Positions 5,943-20,292 of a stretch of 22,630 nucleotides of DNA are shown piece by piece (the stretch's first letter is position 1; every line of letters starts with the position of its first letter). The stretch comes from a virus. The stretch lies in IMG/VR virus record IMGVR_UViG_3300022602_000461, positions 1 to 22,630 of that record; one strand, 5' to 3'. The notes under the pieces are model-generated. The model was not told the DNA's origin, made no database searches, and saw nothing but the letters and a program-made list of their open reading frames with translations. A program made the translations under genes and the position numbers.

Positions 5943-5947
5943 TTATT
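5940..5947 (-). promoter_or_regulatory. T4-type late promoter for gp6
   Basis: Read on the minus strand the bases are AATAAATA. They match the T4 late consensus TATAAATA at seven of eight positions and fully match the NATAAATA variant reported for marine T4-like phages. The motif lies 23 nt before the gp6 ATG, in one of the few intergenic gaps of this operon, with the expected RNA start around 5934. It would be read by polymerase carrying gp55, which is encoded in this window. Confidence 0.6.
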
Positions 5948-14434: not shown

Positions 14435-15337
14435 ATGACCGGTATAATAACAACAAGAAAGGTCAAGTATCTCAATAATAGAGATCTACTTGCAGAAATA
14501 CATAAAAGTAAAAACACATATTGCAGTTTTATAAAGCCAGAATATCATCAATACGATATTATCTTAACAAGTTTAGACAAGATAAACATCCGTACAGTAG
14601 CAGATGCTAAACGTGCAAGGGCAAAACGCATAGGAATTGAAGCATTTAATGCCGCAAAACTATCAGGTGATAAGAAAGTTAAGCTAGCAGAAGTAACACC
14701 CGATTACAAAACTATCCCTAAAACAGATGTCATTATTAGAATTATGACATTTGAACATATTCCTTCAGCGCCGGGCCGTAAGAAAACTGTTAAAAGTACA
14801 GCAGATGCTCACGATAAAGTAAATTTTCCGCCGTTTCAACATTGGAAATTTGACAACAACGATCAATTAGTTTGTGTTGGTAAAAGTCATTGGAAAGGTG
14901 GTATTAAAACAGGTAAGTTTTCTAAGGATCACGGACGCATTACAGAAAACTTAGGTAAGATGTATATCAAGTTATCTGAAAGATACGCACAAAGAAGTAA
15001 CTGGCGTGGTTATACCTACATCGAAGAAATGCGTGGACAGGCTATCCTACAATTAAGCCAAATTGGTTTACAGTTCGACGAATCTAAATCAGAAAATCCG
15101 TTTGCTTATTATACAGCGGCGGTTACTAATAGTTTTACCAGAGTTCTTAATATTGAAAAGAAAATGCAAAACATTCGCGATGATATGTTAGAACAAAATG
15201 GTTTAACCCCTTCATTAACTAGACAAACAAAACAAGAATTTGCAGAGGAAACAGCTCGTCAGGCAGAACTATACAAAAACATGCGTATGCCTAAGAGTGA
15301 AGAAACTCCGGAGGAAGATGAAGACGAACAGACTTGA
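14435..15337 (+). CDS. 55: Late-transcription sigma factor gp55
   Basis: The 300-residue protein contains a sigma region-2-like block at about residues 175-245: ERYAQRSNWRGYTYIEEMRG, QAILQLSQIGLQFDESKSEN, PFAYYTAAVTNSFTRVLNIE, then KKMQNIRDDML. This is the hallmark of gp55, which replaces the host sigma on RNA polymerase and recognises the single TATAAATA-type late promoter element. T4 gp55 is 185 residues. The longer N-terminal part here includes a basic segment and WKFDNNDQLVCVGKSHWKGG, which I cannot assign. The C-terminus is very acidic (EETPEEDEDEQT), reminiscent of but not identical to the short clamp-binding tail of T4 gp55. The gene stands alone between two sigma-70-type promoters, with AGGAGAA before the ATG, and should be made early or in the middle phase to switch on the structural operons. 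Confidence 0.88.
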   Translation: MTGIITTRKVKYLNNRDLLAEIHKSKNTYCSFIKPEYHQYDIILTSLDKINIRTVADAKRARAKRIGIEAFNAAKLSGDKKVKLAEVTPDYKTIPKTDVIIRIMTFEHIPSAPGRKKTVKSTADAHDKVNFPPFQHWKFDNNDQLVCVGKSHWKGGIKTGKFSKDHGRITENLGKMYIKLSERYAQRSNWRGYTYIEEMRGQAILQLSQIGLQFDESKSENPFAYYTAAVTNSFTRVLNIEKKMQNIRDDMLEQNGLTPSLTRQTKQEFAEETARQAELYKNMRMPKSEETPEEDEDEQT

Positions 15338-15378: not shown

Positions 15379-16392
15379 ATGGGACTTTTTAAAAAGGTAG
15401 CTTGTTTTACTGATATTCATTTTGGACTAAAATCAAATAGTTCAGTACACAACCAGGATTGCGAAGATTTTGTAGATTGGTTTATTCAAGAAGCTCAAAA
15501 AGAAGGATGCGAAACCTGCATATTCCTTGGAGACTGGCATCACAATCGTAATAGTATTAATTTAACTACGTTAGATGCCAGTTTACGATCGCTAGAAAAG
15601 TTAGGTGCGGCCTTTGAGCAATTCTTTTGGTTTCCAGGAAACCACGATTTATTCTACAAAGACAAACGTAATATTCATTCTAGTGCTTTTGGACGACATA
15701 TTCCAGGCGTAACAGTTGTTGATGGTATAACAACTATCAAAGATGTTACCCTTGTTCCTTGGTTAATTGGGGACGAGTGGAAAACTATGAAGGACATCAA
15801 GAGCAAATATGTCTTTGGGCACTTTGAATTACCCAAGTTCTTTATGAATGCCATGGTTCAAATGCCGGATCATGGTGAACTTCATGCAGAAGACTTCAAT
15901 GGTCCCGACTATATTTTTTCGGGACACTTTCATAAACGACAGACTAACAATAAAGTAGTTTATATAGGTAACGCATTTCCTCATAATTTCTCAGACGCAT
16001 GGGATGATGATCGAGGAATGATGTTTATGTCATGGGGTGGAAAGCCCGAATATCGTGTTTGGCCAGATGCTCCTAAGTTTCGTACAATTAAACTAAGCCA
16101 ACTGATTGACGAAAAAGATACTTTAATAAAAAGTAAGATGTATCTTAAAGTCAATATCAACTTACCTCTAAGTTATGAAGAAGCAAATTTTGTAAAAGAA
16201 GACTTTACCAGCAATTACGACATTCGAGAATTAAGTCTTATTCAAGAAAAGAATGACTTAGAAGGCACAATTGATGATAACCCAGATGCTAAATTTGAAT
16301 CAGTAGATCAAATTGTTAATGAACAATTAGTTAACATCGAATCTGAAGCATTTGACAAGTCATTATTACTTAATATCTATAACAACCTATAA
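15379..16392 (+). CDS. 47: Recombination endonuclease subunit gp47 (Mre11/SbcD-type)
   Basis: This metallophosphoesterase of 337 residues (T4 gp47 is 339) shows the family motifs in order: DIH at 12-14, GDWHHN at 51-56 (Asp52, His54), GNHD at 87-90, FGHFE near 147-150 and GHFH at 182-185. Together they bind two metal ions and cut DNA. With gp46 it forms the nuclease that resects DNA ends for recombination-dependent replication and helps degrade host DNA. The start is set by AGGAG with the usual spacing, and it opens the operon from its own promoter. The stop overlaps the gp46 start as TAATG, which suits equal production of the two subunits. Confidence 0.95.
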   Translation: MGLFKKVACFTDIHFGLKSNSSVHNQDCEDFVDWFIQEAQKEGCETCIFLGDWHHNRNSINLTTLDASLRSLEKLGAAFEQFFWFPGNHDLFYKDKRNIHSSAFGRHIPGVTVVDGITTIKDVTLVPWLIGDEWKTMKDIKSKYVFGHFELPKFFMNAMVQMPDHGELHAEDFNGPDYIFSGHFHKRQTNNKVVYIGNAFPHNFSDAWDDDRGMMFMSWGGKPEYRVWPDAPKFRTIKLSQLIDEKDTLIKSKMYLKVNINLPLSYEEANFVKEDFTSNYDIRELSLIQEKNDLEGTIDDNPDAKFESVDQIVNEQLVNIESEAFDKSLLLNIYNNL

Positions 16393-18179
16393 TGTTTAAC
16401 ATAAAAAATATAACAGTTAAGAACTTTCTTAGCGTAGGTAATCAAACACAGGCTGTAGATTTTGACAAAGAACACTTAACATTAGTGTTAGGCGAAAACT
16501 TAGATCTCGGTGGAGACGATAGCGGAAGCCGTAATGGTACGGGTAAAACTACCATTGTTAACGCATTGTGTTATGCTTTATACGGAAATGCATTAACTAA
16601 TATCCGTAAAGAGAACCTAATCAACAAAACAAACAACAAAGGTATGTTAGTTACCGTTGAGTTTGAAGTAAACGGAGTATCATATCGCATCGAGCGAGGT
16701 CGTAAACCTAATATTTTAAAGCTATACGTTAATAACGAAGTGCAAAACGATAGTGACGACAACGAAGATGATGCACAGGGCGATAGCCGCGAAACGCAAA
16801 AACACATAGAACAACTACTAGGTATGAGCCCGTTAATGTTTAAGCATTTGGTTGCTTTGAACACTTATACCGAACCTTTTTTGAGTCTTAAATCGGCCGA
16901 ACAACGTGAAATCATTGAGCAACTATTAGGGATAACTCTGTTATCAGAGAAAGCAGAGAACCTTAAATTGCAGATGAAAGACGTAAAAGATGCTATTACA
17001 AGCGAGACTGCAAAGATAGAAGCTATCAAAACAGCCAATGAAAACGTTCAAAAGAGCATCAATAGCCTAGGAATTAAGAGTTCTGCTTGGGAAAACAAGC
17101 ATTACCAAGACTTAGAAAGTCTAAGCAAAGCTATTATGCAGTTAGAAAGCGTCGATATTGAAGCTGAACTTATTGCCCATTCCAATTTGAAACTATGGAA
17201 TGACAATAATAACAAGATTAGAGAACTCAGTAAACAACGAGCTACGTTAGAAGCCGCAGTTGGGCAAGCAGAAAAGACTGTAAACAAATATCAAAAAGAA
17301 TTAACAACTCTAAGTGATAAGACTTGCCCAGCATGCGAACAAGATTTACATGATCATAAGCACGAAGAAATGACTACGCTGGCTACTACTCATTTAGCAG
17401 AAGCAGAAACTTATAAAAATAAAGTAAGTAGTGACTTAGAACTAGTACTTGCTTCTATAGAAGCAGTTGGAGAACTAGGTCGTAAACCAACTACCTTCTA
17501 CGAAACAGAAGCGGAAGCATTAGGACATAAAAATAATTTGTCTAGTTTAGAAATTAATCTTACAAATAAAGCAAACGAATCTAATCCTTACAACGAACAG
17601 ATTGAAGAACTAAAGAAAACAGCCATTCAAGAAATTAGTTGGGATGAAGTTAACGAGTTAACTAGGGTAAAAGAACATCAAGAGTTCTTGTATAAATTGC
17701 TAACCAACAAAGATAGTTTCATTCGTAAGAAAATTATTGATCAAAACTTAACATTCCTTAACAAACGCTTAGGATATTATATTGATAAGATTGGATTACC
17801 TCACAAAGTTACATTCTTAAACGATCTTAACGTAGAAATTACACAATTTGGACAAGACTTAGACTTTGATAACCTAAGTCGAGGCGAGCGGAATAGATTA
17901 ATTTTAAGTTTAAGTTGGGCGTTCCGTGATGTTTGGGAAAATTTATATCAACATATCAATTTGTTATTCATTGACGAGCTTATTGATGCAGGCATGGACG
18001 CCGCAGGTGTTGAAGCAGGTGTAGGAATTCTAAAGAAGATGGCTCGAGAACGTAACAAGAATATATACTTAATATCGCATAAAGATGAATTAATCGGGCG
18101 AGTAAACAATGTACTTCGCGTTATCAAAGAAAACGGTTTTACCTCTTACTCAAATGACGTTGACTATGTAGAGGCATAA
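16392..18179 (+). CDS. 46: Recombination endonuclease subunit gp46 (Rad50/SbcC-type ATPase)
   Basis: The protein has 595 residues (T4 gp46 is 560). The P-loop is GSRNGTGKTT with Lys52. A coiled-coil arm runs from about residue 180 to 420, broken by a zinc-hook CPAC at 312-315 that would link two molecules. The C-terminal lobe has the ABC signature LSRGERNRLILSLSW, Walker B LLFIDELIDAGMD and the switch histidine in ISHKDE. The ATPase opens and closes on DNA to control the gp47 nuclease. All key residues are present, so it should be active. It overlaps gp47 by one base and the next small gene also by one base, indicating one polycistronic message. Confidence 0.96.
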   Translation: MFNIKNITVKNFLSVGNQTQAVDFDKEHLTLVLGENLDLGGDDSGSRNGTGKTTIVNALCYALYGNALTNIRKENLINKTNNKGMLVTVEFEVNGVSYRIERGRKPNILKLYVNNEVQNDSDDNEDDAQGDSRETQKHIEQLLGMSPLMFKHLVALNTYTEPFLSLKSAEQREIIEQLLGITLLSEKAENLKLQMKDVKDAITSETAKIEAIKTANENVQKSINSLGIKSSAWENKHYQDLESLSKAIMQLESVDIEAELIAHSNLKLWNDNNNKIRELSKQRATLEAAVGQAEKTVNKYQKELTTLSDKTCPACEQDLHDHKHEEMTTLATTHLAEAETYKNKVSSDLELVLASIEAVGELGRKPTTFYETEAEALGHKNNLSSLEINLTNKANESNPYNEQIEELKKTAIQEISWDEVNELTRVKEHQEFLYKLLTNKDSFIRKKIIDQNLTFLNKRLGYYIDKIGLPHKVTFLNDLNVEITQFGQDLDFDNLSRGERNRLILSLSWAFRDVWENLYQHINLLFIDELIDAGMDAAGVEAGVGILKKMARERNKNIYLISHKDELIGRVNNVLRVIKENGFTSYSNDVDYVEA

Positions 18180-18403
18180 TGCTAAACAAGTATAAGGATC
18201 TTCACAGTCAACATATTGACTTACTTGTAGAATACTATAACATACATCAAGCGTATGTTAGAAAACCTACATATGAAAGATCCATACTTCTACGTAACAT
18301 ATTAACAAAATTACATAGAATGAACAAAGCCTTAAAAGATGAAATTCAAGTAGTCCGTAAACAAATGGAAGAAGAAAGAAGATTAAAAAAGGAGGCGCAA
18401 TGA
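18179..18403 (+). CDS. Small helical coiled-coil protein of unknown function
   Basis: I do not recognise this 74-residue protein. It is strongly helical and charged, basic in the middle (RKPTYERSILLRNILTKLHR) and ending in a coiled-coil-like KQMEEERRLKKEAQ. No signal peptide or membrane segment is visible. Its start overlaps the gp46 stop by one base and its stop overlaps the next start by four (ATGA), so it is co-translated with the recombination genes. A role as an accessory to gp46/gp47 or to DNA packaging or compaction is possible from context only. Confidence 0.8.
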   Translation: MLNKYKDLHSQHIDLLVEYYNIHQAYVRKPTYERSILLRNILTKLHRMNKALKDEIQVVRKQMEEERRLKKEAQ

Positions 18404-18594
18404 GCGCAACAATTCAAGCAATTAAAGATGCTGTTACAGCATGGGAAGCAGAAGACACTAAATTTGAAAAAGGTAATTCAGCCGCAGGTACTCGTGCCCG
18501 TAAGGCATTAGCCGAAGTAGGTAAGTTAATCAAAGCTCGCCGCAACGAAATTACAGAAACTAAAAATGCTCGTAAGGAGGCCAAGACTGCTTAA
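18400..18594 (+). CDS. Histone H1-like protein, Hc1 family
   Basis: The 64-residue protein contains the block KFEKGNSAAGTRARKALAEV followed by GKLIKARRNEI, which matches the N-terminal core of the Hc1 histone H1-like family known from chlamydial nucleoid condensation and from many aquatic bacteria and phages. The long Lys/Ala-rich tail of chlamydial Hc1 is missing; a short basic end (ETKNARKEAKTA) takes its place. It should be a small DNA-binding or DNA-bridging protein. It has the strongest ribosome-binding site of the operon (AAGGAGG at 18389-18395), so it is probably made in larger amounts than its neighbours. It is coupled upstream (ATGA overlap) and downstream (TAATG). The family call rests on the KGNxAAGTRARK signature. 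Confidence 0.75.
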   Translation: MSATIQAIKDAVTAWEAEDTKFEKGNSAAGTRARKALAEVGKLIKARRNEITETKNARKEAKTA

Positions 18595-19037
18595 TGTCTT
18601 GGACTTATCAAGGTACAATCGTTGAAGAACTACCTGAGGACTGTGTTGGATTTGTTTATCTTATCACGAACACAGTCACTGGGCGCATGTATGTTGGCAA
18701 AAAATTAGCCAAGTTTGCAAGAACAACATACAAAACAGTAAAATTAAAAAACGGCAAGAAGAAACGTAAGAAAATTAAAGGCAAAATAGATTCTGACTGG
18801 AAAACATATTACGGATCCAGTCCTAACCTAACAGCAGACATACAAACATTAGGCACAGACAAATTTACACGTGAAATATTACATTATTGCACATCAAAGG
18901 CCCTTACATCATATCTAGAAGCAAAAGAACAATTTGATCGCAAAGTACTAGAATCGCACGACTACTATAACGGGCACATCCAAGTTAGAGTTCACGGCTC
19001 TCATATTCTCAAAACTCAGGCAACTAAAACAGTATAA
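18594..19037 (+). CDS. GIY-YIG family endonuclease
   Basis: The protein of 147 residues has GFVYLI (19-24) and MYVG (32-35), variants of the GIY and YIG strands. A probable catalytic Glu109 lies in SYLEAKEQFD and YYNGHI (124-129) forms the usual closing motif. Between the second strand and the rest of the domain sits a highly basic loop, KLKNGKKKRKKIKGKI (50-65), probably a DNA-contact insertion, followed by WKTYYGSS. Such small GIY-YIG enzymes in T4-like phages act as free-standing homing endonucleases or in DNA branch or end processing. No separate DNA-binding domain is visible, as homing enzymes usually have, so a housekeeping nuclease in this recombination operon is as likely. It is the last gene of the operon, and its stop is followed directly by the structured non-coding stretch. 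Confidence 0.75.
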   Translation: MSWTYQGTIVEELPEDCVGFVYLITNTVTGRMYVGKKLAKFARTTYKTVKLKNGKKKRKKIKGKIDSDWKTYYGSSPNLTADIQTLGTDKFTREILHYCTSKALTSYLEAKEQFDRKVLESHDYYNGHIQVRVHGSHILKTQATKTV

Positions 19038-19380
19038 GCTAGCACAGGCTAACATCGTGTGCCCACGCCAACTCGATAATAAGAGGGACGGAATTCTCTG
19101 CGCTGTACAGAGTACTCAACTACTATCCTTAACAGGACGTCGATCGCAATTTGCCGCGGTTTAGTTGTTTGAATAGAGTGAAAAAAGAGCTAAAAGAGGG
19201 TTAGAAGCCCGTGGTTGTAGTGTAAGATTGCATTTGCGCTAGAACCTGCCGTCATAATAAGACATAGCTAGGGGTACAGGATGACCGCCTCGGTAACGCT
19301 ATAATGCAATGTGACTTGTCGAACTCAGATAATGTCCAATTCTTAGCCCAATCTGGGCTAAGTGTGACCATAGAATCTAG
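19038..19380 (+). ncRNA. Candidate structured non-coding RNA
   Basis: No convincing reading frame is present here. A hand count gives 134 G+C in the 300 bases 19081-19380 (45%), clearly above the adjoining leader (about 32% over 19381-19500) and the nearby genes. Inverted repeats are dense. They are 19042-19046 with 19058-19062; 19096-19100 with 19108-19112 (CTCTG/CAGAG, 7-nt loop); and 19198-19200 with 19208-19210. A long-range pair joins 19227-19234 and 19303-19310 (ATTGCATT/AATGCAAT, perfect), enclosing 19236-19238 with 19297-19299 and 19251-19255 with 19281-19285. A strong hairpin at 19342-19362 (CTTAGCCC/GGGCTAAG) closes the region but lacks a T-run. High GC in an AT-rich phage plus nested pairing suggests a folded RNA, either transcribed from the gp47 operon or processed from it. 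I could not match it to tRNA, tmRNA, RNase P RNA or a group I intron core. Strand is assumed from context. Confidence 0.45.
19342..19362 (+). terminator. Strong hairpin at the end of the structured stretch
   Basis: CTTAGCCC (19342-19349) and GGGCTAAG (19355-19362) form a perfect 8-bp stem with a 5-nt loop. There is no T-run after it, so it is not a classical intrinsic terminator. It may be the 3' end of the candidate RNA, a processing site or a stability element. Confidence 0.4.
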
Positions 19381-19473
19381 ATAATATATAACTGCTTCGC
19401 AGTATTATAGTTGTCAATAATTAAAGAAATAGCTTCAAGCGATAGCGCAGAAGCAAGTGAACGCAGTTCACTT
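19381..19473 (+). promoter_or_regulatory. Array of three hairpins before the head-protein gene
   Basis: Three small stem-loops follow closely. The first is ACTGC/GCAGT at 19391-19395/19399-19403, with flanking ATAAT/ATTAT able to extend it past a bulge. The second is GCTTC/GAAGC at 19432-19436/19450-19454. The third is a perfect 8-bp AAGTGAAC/GTTCACTT at 19455-19462/19466-19473 with a 3-nt loop. They may end the upstream message or protect its 3' end. The stretch from here to the next start is AT-rich and otherwise empty. Confidence 0.4.
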
Positions 19474-19496
19474 ATCATATTAAAATCACTTTTCGT

Positions 19497-19504
19497 GTTA
19501 AATA
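19497..19504 (+). promoter_or_regulatory. Possible late promoter for the head-protein gene
   Basis: GTTAAATA keeps the TAAATA core of the late motif with a T instead of A at the second position. It lies 33 nt before the ATG at 19537, and GGAG at 19526-19529 gives a good ribosome-binding site. A separate late start is plausible for a structural gene placed after the early-type operon. Confidence 0.35.
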
Positions 19505-19536
19505 AACTTATCAAATACCTGTAATGGAGTCACTAA

Positions 19537-20292
19537 ATGCGTATAAATGAATTATTTGAATCTCAACAATTAGAGGAAGGTCCTGGTTGGGATCAAGCTA
19601 AACAAGGCCTTGGACAAGTTGGTCAAGGAGCCATGAATGTTGCCAAAGGAGCCGCTAAAGGAGCTCCAGGTGTTATTGGTGGATTAGGTAAAGCCGCTGG
19701 TGCAGTTGCAGGTGGTGCTTTAGGTGCATGGGACAAAGCTAAACAGGGATTTCAAGCAGGACGTAATGCTGTAGGTGGCAATGCTGTTCCGCAAAAAGGT
19801 GGTGCACCTGCACAAGGTAATGCACCCGCAGGTAATGCCGCTCCGGCACAAGGTAATGCACCCGCAGGTAATGCCGCTCCGGCACAAGGCGGACAACAAG
19901 GTGGCGGAGCAGGTGGTGCTGATCCAAAACTAGCACAACAAGTACAGGCACTAGAAAAAGAAGTTGCAGATGTTAAGCAACAACTTAAAACAACTCAAGA
20001 TCAATTAGCAAAAACACAAGAAGCTCCAGCAAAAGAAGCTCCCCCAGCTAACAGTTTAGACACTCCAAATTCGAGTGCTCCATCACAAGCCGCTCCTCCA
20101 GAAGCCAATACAGAAACTCAACCAACAGAACCTGCTCCAGAAAATCAGCCAGGTGCAAATAATTCAGCCGCAATGGGCAACATGGCAGGACAATTACAGG
20201 CACAGGCAGATGCAAGAGACGCTGATCATAATAGATTAGCATCTGGACAAAATGAAGGTTTTCACAGCCGTTTTTTAGGACAAATGATTTAA
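19537..20292 (+). CDS. Low-complexity protein with capsid-targeting-like N-terminus, candidate internal head protein
   Basis: I do not recognise a folded domain in this 251-residue protein. The N-terminus MRINELFESQQLEEGPG resembles the short targeting peptides of T4 internal head proteins: it contains two matches to the prohead protease rule (L/I)xE before a small residue, LFE/S at 6-9 and LEE/G at 12-15. Residues 15-75 are Gly/Ala/Lys-rich and amphipathic. Residues 85-125 are Ala/Gly/Pro/Gln repeats, including an exact 36-bp tandem duplication. A coiled coil follows at about 128-165 (LAQQVQALEKEVADVKQQLK), then a Pro/Ala/Glu/Asn-rich stretch and a distinct C-terminus FHSRFLGQMI. The defined ends around a disordered middle suggest a virion or scaffold protein. 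Its stop overlaps the stop of the convergent gene. A tail-associated or scaffolding role is the alternative. Confidence 0.8.
   Translation: MRINELFESQQLEEGPGWDQAKQGLGQVGQGAMNVAKGAAKGAPGVIGGLGKAAGAVAGGALGAWDKAKQGFQAGRNAVGGNAVPQKGGAPAQGNAPAGNAAPAQGNAPAGNAAPAQGGQQGGGAGGADPKLAQQVQALEKEVADVKQQLKTTQDQLAKTQEAPAKEAPPANSLDTPNSSAPSQAAPPEANTETQPTEPAPENQPGANNSAAMGNMAGQLQAQADARDADHNRLASGQNEGFHSRFLGQMI
19810..19881 (+). repeat. Two exact 36-bp tandem repeats inside the head-protein gene
   Basis: The unit 19810-19845 is repeated without change at 19846-19881, and the first bases of a third copy follow. It encodes a 12-residue unit close to AQGNAPAGNAAP. The identity at third codon positions shows a recent duplication, and copy number may vary between strains. 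Confidence 0.9.

Follow-up and report, generated by a model that had tools for sequence, protein, structure and literature searches.

The window analysed here, a stretch of 22,630 nucleotides (positions 1 to 22,630 of the IMG/VR virus record IMGVR_UViG_3300022602_000461), carries on its plus strand a gp55-like late sigma factor gene, gp47-like and gp46-like genes and a SegE-type GIY-YIG endonuclease gene, the last of which is directly followed by a conserved noncoding RNA on the same strand (Table 1). Between the gp46-like gene, which is of the SbcC/SMC type, and the endonuclease gene, positions 18400-18594 encode a 64-aa protein that matches Pfam Hc1 (histone H1-like; E 1.4e-14). Late-promoter-like (A/T)ATAAATA sequences are found at positions 5947 (-), 21423 (-) and 21388 (+), 30-61 nt before late genes.

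The RNA, here called type A, is about 365 nt long, starting just past the stop codon of the GIY-YIG gene and ending at a terminator-like hairpin. The first-pass annotation had proposed a structured RNA at 19038-19380; the RNA is real, while those limits proved too narrow, since it extends from about 19038 to 19404. The GC content reported for 19081-19380 (134/300) is exact, compared with 37.8% for the window. As had also been stated, the stretch holds no credible gene: listed ORFs of at least 40 aa are absent from 19038-19376, a 45-aa frame lies on the minus strand at 19377-19514, and no conserved reading frame was seen in 102 nonredundant relatives, in which the longest closed ATG frame within the RNA, on both strands, reaches 36 aa at the median and 88 aa at most. 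Three terminator-like sites were counted in 18500-19600 against a shuffle mean of 1.0, with the hairpin at 19391-19403 counted on both strands.

Table 1. Features of the type-A RNA and its surroundings (window coordinates unless a locus is named)
Feature	Position	Strand	Observations
gp55-like late sigma factor gene	14435-15337	+	phrog_12791, E 8.8e-87
gp46-like SbcC/SMC gene	16392-18179	+	same strand as RNA
SegE-type GIY-YIG endonuclease gene	18594-19037	+	directly upstream of RNA; PF19835, E 1.5e-33
Complete type-A RNA	19038-19404	+	HMM/MAFFT alignment, 149 full-length copies
5' domain, Rfam RF01718 Polynucleobacter-1	19037-19170	+	cmscan, model 1-141 of 141
Hairpin 19042-19046/19058-19062	19042-19062	+	paired in 99-102 of 102; AU/GC/UA exchanges
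Long stem 19117-19122/19162-19167, extended by 19142-19147/19156-19161	19117-19167	+	paired in 97-102 of 102; compensatory changes
Hairpin of the 3' half, outside RF01718	19214-19246	+	loop makes pseudoknot 1; 88.4% of cells paired; changes on both sides in 11/11 pairs
Pseudoknot 1, 19227-19233 with 19304-19310	19227-19310	+	98.9% of cells paired (40 sequences); double changes in 7/7 pairs
Pseudoknot 2, 19251-19255 with 19281-19285	19251-19285	+	98.5% of cells paired; double changes in 3/5 pairs
Stem 19265-19268/19298-19301	19265-19301	+	98.8% of cells paired; double changes in 2/4 pairs
Stem 19271-19274/19288-19291	19271-19291	+	100% of cells paired; double changes in 1/4 pairs
Tag 1, ACUC (19323-19326) + core AGAUAAU (19327-19333)	19323-19333	+	
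Hairpin separating the two tags	19342-19362	+	89.1% of cells paired; double changes in 2/8 pairs
Tag 2, AUCU (19375-19378) + core AGAUAAU (19379-19385)	19375-19385	+	
Terminator-like hairpin ACTGC-TTC-GCAGT	19391-19403	+	3' of tag 2; pattern match only
~90-aa gene between GIY-YIG gene and type-B RNA	L014 6646-6915; L025 6524-6802; L044 6696-6977; L050 7234-7512		

A search of the Rfam models, ROOL and GOLLD included, gave a single match above cut-off: RF01718, which covers the 5' third over the full model with 90 bits (gathering threshold 37, E 2.4e-18). The earlier description of the RNA as unidentified therefore holds for the 3' two thirds, which remain below every Rfam cut-off, and fails for the 5' third, which belongs to a known family. 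RF01718 was also detected in 12/12 other short loci (80.9-121.1 bits). The view that the RNA is no tRNA or tmRNA agrees with ARAGORN and Rfam, neither of which gave a match, and no RNase P or group I/II intron signature was matched among the 4227 Rfam models. In one of the large phage records (G004, contig 1, 24515-24845), ARAGORN reported a tmRNA (tmRNA*) with the tag ASNDSIFALAA.

The starting sample consisted of viral loci picked by their gp46-like gene. The RNA was matched in 65 of the best 80 of 598 confirmed gp46 loci, in most of them almost end to end or until the contig stops; in L016 the match begins only at column 160. Of the 15/80 loci without a type-A RNA, nine end at most 100 nt past the GIY-YIG gene and six carry a different RNA, type B, described below. 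The sample was widened by an IMG/VR pattern scan (at least 120 matches), and the type-A profile found the RNA in 185/200 loci. The 149 copies aligned as full-length begin no later than model column 8 and extend at least to column 360, the window duplicates L001 and L081 being excluded; 102 of them are nonredundant (<90% identity to each other), and the mean identity is 63%. A wider set of 164 comprises every type-A copy reaching column 350, including later-starting ones. In three divergent loci (L187, L090 and L197) the profile match stops at column 286-295, and the 3' end differs.

RF01718 occurs as one copy each in 8/10 viral records tested (35 to 355 kb), and the remaining two, those of L047 and L014, carry type B. 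A genome collection gave 13 matches, four of them good and located in bacterial genome bins: L202, L203 and L213 (Methylococcaceae) and L208 (Bacteroidetes). These four are probably phage contigs within bins; the other nine scored at most 10.8 bits and were taken as chance pattern matches. Nine named-phage records (eight isolates and one single-cell record) were also checked. RF01718 had no match at E <= 1 in six whole records, two control genomes matching below cut-off; Rfam gave no match in stretches of five named phages; the R1 search of all nine gave none, which is weak evidence given its stricter filters and lack of a positive control; and the tail pattern found no identical-core pair in the nine, whereas two viral control records had theirs. 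Accordingly, no cultured phage was found to carry the RNA, and INPHARED blastn with the RNA as query returned nothing.

As a rule, the RNA immediately follows the GIY-YIG gene. Its start lies at most 60 nt from the end of the GIY-YIG gene in 166/170 loci where that gene was found; it was not found in 14/184 loci, 10 of which have at most 106 nt before the RNA. In the Sinorhizobium phage Phosso (L221, 8411-9424) and PA5oct (L220, 8868-9530), the syntenic interval from the gp46 block to the baseplate hub gene includes a long gap without annotated genes; neither gap gave an Rfam, HMM or R1 match, and both may harbour other large RNAs.

There is strong support for the conclusion that the stretch specifies a conserved, folded RNA under selection in T4-like phage contigs. 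The strong evidence for the fold is comparative; single-sequence folding was only mildly above chance (z -2.1; 2/100 shuffles equally good). Compensatory changes are present in the aligned homologues, both with RNAalifold and in an all-by-all covariation table. For the 3' part (40 sequences, 45 named pairs), 93.1% of cells are paired, compared with 78.3% in shuffled and at most 47.0% in slid controls, the slid control being favourable to the structure, as the pairs had been picked on these very sequences. Doubly changed cells number 257 against 75.5 in the control, both sides change in 29/45 pairs, and the covariation score is 0.454 against 0.177. The 8-bp long-range pair noticed earlier (19227-19234/19303-19310) is present, with 7/8 pairs conserved. 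It had been described as nesting shorter pairs; the long-range pair is real, and the arrangement is better described as two pseudoknots. The closing hairpin is likewise present (19342-19350/19354-19362). Finally, the column pair 19126/19138 is U-C in 64 and C-U in 38 of 102 sequences, an exchange that suggests a non-canonical contact.

The tail of the RNA, 3' of the pseudoknot, carries two short tags that flank a hairpin and whose starts are 52 bp apart in the window. The 7-nt cores of the two tags are identical to each other in 149/149 full-length copies and in 164/164 type-A copies reaching the tail, 160 of which follow the strict pattern, while four with altered anchors (L198, L140, L136 and L182) were scored by eye. 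The covariation table accordingly contains same-letter pairs between tag 1 and tag 2. The cores are not fixed in sequence: ten different ones were found among type-A loci. On an RNA tree calculated without the tail, the four variable core columns require 25, 5, 9 and 6 parsimony changes, about 45 in total, a count that tree errors would inflate, with mismatched cores at 0/102 tips. Around 25 of these changes fall at position 19327. The same columns require 29, 7, 8 and 4 changes on the GIY-YIG tree (95 tips) and 18, 6, 5 and 4 on the gp46 tree (75 tips).

The constant differences between the tags are transitions, CUC/UCU and then G/A past the core, as would be expected if both tags paired with one strand through G-U wobble. 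Transversions also occur: U/A at 19322/19374, a little outside the core, in 12/102 sequences, and A/U at the first anchor letter in L198, L140 and L136. Plain gene conversion is unlikely, since each event would need to end precisely at the constant letters. No close pairs with unequal cores and more than 88% body identity were found among 143 type-A copies in a crude anchor search. In type A, UGAC-like letters are conserved 5' of each tag. Partial self-complementarity of tag 2 was seen in 62/102 sequences, not across all core types. A 25-nt stretch of the 5' domain (19057-19081) is 72% identical to the tag 2 region 19362-19386, a likeness probably due to chance because most of the shared letters lack conservation in the consensus of the alignment. 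The tags were also considered, and rejected, as late promoters: they contain ATAAT, but the (A/T)ATAAATA sites precede three late genes instead; moreover, ATAAT is not conserved (ATGAA variants occur), and the tag motif is not convincingly recurrent outside the RNA, with nine loose matches in 102 loci.

The same tail ends two different RNA bodies at one locus. In six gp46 loci (L014, L025, L044, L047, L050 and L051) it closes a different noncoding stretch of about 400 nt, type B, which lies directly 3' of the GIY-YIG gene in two of them and behind an extra gene of about 90 aa in four (Table 1); L047 and L051 resemble each other over the portion examined. The cores of these six are ACATGAA, GCATGAA or ACATAAA. 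The type-A 3' covariance model scores weakly in three of the six (21.6, 16.4 and 12.2 bits), probably in part due to the tail. A search located type B in 55 viral stretches; five of these belong to the contigs of the six gp46 loci. In 8/55 loci, Rfam searched at E up to 5 yielded nothing beyond a microRNA match of 22.7 bits (cut-off 80). Since the type-B alignment required the tail and gives no core frequency, the frequency was taken from the 55 stretches: 49 have identical cores, three are too short and three differ by one transition, these three being the only loci in which unequal cores were met. Two type-B blastn queries matched the GIY-YIG part of Melnitz phages, a part that the queries overlapped; one of the two also gave a 31-base match in three Oenococcus phage records.

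The tail was also used to look for further loci. Within 3.39 Mb of retrieved DNA, searched on both strands, the strict tail is confined to these RNAs. Tail-only scans with two tails gave at least 120 matches each; among the matches listed, 224 loci were new, which the profiles assigned to type A (109), type B (114) or neither (1). Of the 223 assigned to a type, 44 scored below 60 bits, comprising the 3' part only, little beyond the tail, or a stretch that was cut off. These loci say nothing on the frequency of core mismatches because they were selected for equal cores. Among the same listed matches, a GIY-YIG gene lies at most 900 nt upstream of the tail in 157/224 loci and elsewhere in 13; it was not found in 37/224 with a short upstream stretch and in 17/224 despite more than 1.5 kb. 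The gene is thus a frequent neighbour and not a strict partner.

Searches for a partner of the cores covered contiguous complements, conserved genes and tRNAs, partly in five large phage records that may be incomplete. No covarying partner was found within the RNA, and no common position of a pairing partner within the RNA or up to 1.5 kb away. Tag 1 pairs weakly with UUGUUUGAA past the long stem in 21/102 sequences, a neighbouring bin adding five; this pairing was rejected, as it would not demand core identity. The flanks gave 15 matches (at least 13/14 positions) against 10-13 for swapped tags, with around six of the 15 being the tag's own opposite strand. In the five records, no complement of the core was shared, the sharing of sites near conserved genes did not exceed that in permuted controls, and none of the tRNAs predicted by ARAGORN contains the core complement. 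Considered as the guide RNA of a nuclease, the RNA likewise had no target that could be located in these five records.

Neighbouring genes gave a similar result. No residue of GIY-YIG, gp46, gp47, o64, m72 or m287 was found to track core position 19327, the best ratio, which is not corrected for tree shape, being 0.41; at the nucleotide level, none of six neighbouring genes convincingly tracks the core. The ratio of 0.88 for o74 comes from only 20 sequences, 15 of which share one letter. Values near 1 at the last core position (gp46, gp47 and o64) and at 19331 (o74) reflect rare states of one to five sequences and were set aside.

The explanation to which we tentatively give preference, at somewhat under an even chance, is that of a stand-alone phage RNA acting in trans, the tags of which would recognise one common target. 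The RNA would probably arise as the 3'-terminal part of the gp47-gp46-GIY-YIG transcript, with the folded body serving as a scaffold. In favour of this view count the covarying fold, the place of the RNA behind the GIY-YIG gene and, in some loci, close to a convergent gene, the matched cores with their changes on the tree, the transitions that separate the tags and the unequal type-B cores, and the tail, which two bodies share and which the scanned DNA holds only in these RNAs. Both tags would base-pair with the same short nucleic-acid target, or with two copies of it, and a change in the target would force the identical change in both tags. Such a target would lie outside the searched stretches, elsewhere in the phage or in the host. 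That it was not found is the main weakness of the pairing mechanism; what was directly observed is the fold, the extent, the position and the twin-core rule. Further observations count against the proposal: some differences just outside the core are transversions, zero core mismatches in 102 nonredundant copies are stricter than expected if one tag sufficed, and L187, L090 and L197 lack the tags altogether.

Other explanations have been weighed. The tags could bind a phage-encoded dimeric RNA-binding protein, in which case the RNA would serve as a sponge, a scaffold or a signal for packaging, and the specificity of the protein would dictate the core; two copies at near-constant spacing with a hairpin between them, and the UGAC-like letters 5' of each tag in type A, would suit this arrangement, yet position 19327 changes about 25 times while six neighbouring proteins fail to track it, and we regard the idea as unlikely. 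A role without any function in trans, as a 3'-UTR element by which the gp47-gp46-GIY-YIG mRNA is stabilised or terminated, is more improbable. Pseudoknots can block exonucleases, and the RNA follows the GIY-YIG gene directly almost wherever that gene was found; such an element, however, leaves unexplained why two 7-nt cores stay identical while changing, and the 17 tail-found loci in which the gene was not found despite ample upstream sequence do not fit it. It has also been considered that the tags act as DNA, as paired sites for strand exchange or template switching in which a short overlap must be identical and any sequence is allowed. Overlaps in site-specific recombination do combine a short identical core, free in sequence, with constant, different flanks, which is what the tags display. 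The short distance between the tag starts, the conservation of the upstream fold as RNA, the retention of the inter-tag hairpin, and the presence of both tags in all 164 type-A copies reaching the tail argue against it and make this a distinctly poor candidate.

A riboswitch-like, cis-regulatory 5' leader is the least probable of these and very unlikely. It would agree with the same-strand ORF that starts at 19537, 132 nt past the RNA, and with the table of the 2010 paper, where RF01718 is tentatively marked 'cis-reg? y'; the authors of that paper usually take a motif that is commonly found upstream of genes to be part of a 5' UTR (PMC2864571). However, a convergent m72/m287 gene lies at most 150 nt from the RNA end in 24/120 loci where it was found, loci that do not conform to the label. 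The RNA is thus not a consistent 5' leader, contrary to the tentative 2010 label; no consistent place upstream of a co-directed gene was seen, and the terminator-like hairpin 3' of tag 2 also speaks against a leader.

Returning to the trans-acting RNA, pairing of the tags with a target would mean that the twin-core rule predicts the target sequence, making the function directly testable. A broader version, which we consider doubtful, holds that RNAs with this tail form an abundant superfamily in phages, in which the bodies are interchangeable and the two copies of a twin seed must match a fast-changing target. If true, this would be an undescribed type of guide or regulatory RNA in phages, whose target might be nucleic acid of the host or of a rival, and RF01718 would be merely the fragment noticed first. 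Irrespective of mechanism, one or more further large RNAs bear this tail, among them type B, which is frequent in viral metagenome contigs and went unmatched by Rfam in the tested loci.

GOLLD, ROOL and OLE are large, elaborate bacterial RNAs (PMC12286853), a character that the type-A RNA shares. Some of these ornate RNAs are phage-borne. They are present in Rfam, and none of the three was matched in the window RNA among the 4227 models. In a relaxed search of 18901-19600, cow-rumen-2 (RF02947) aligned end to end with 19214-19311, with which it has ACAGGAUGACC in common; STnc410 was a weaker match on the minus strand (12.8 bits). The RF02947 score is 24.2 bits against a cut-off of 66, placing the RNA outside that family. 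It was also found at the equivalent part of the RNA in 2/12 other loci at about 23 bits, and several model pairs are not formed in the window RNA, so this is a resemblance only.

The closest known system is RF01718 itself, which, in the literature text accessible for the search, appeared under this accession or as Polynucleobacter-1 in the 2010 paper alone (PMC2864571). The type-A RNA is about 2.6 times longer, its conserved match spanning around 375 columns compared with the 141 of the model, and beyond the model limits it has two pseudoknots and the twin-tag tail. In contrast to the description of RF01718, it sits in T4-like phage contigs without a consistent place upstream of a gene. Of this RNA, only the 5' third had been catalogued, as RF01718; the family of 2010 forms the opening third of a longer phage RNA that obeys a precise twin-core rule.
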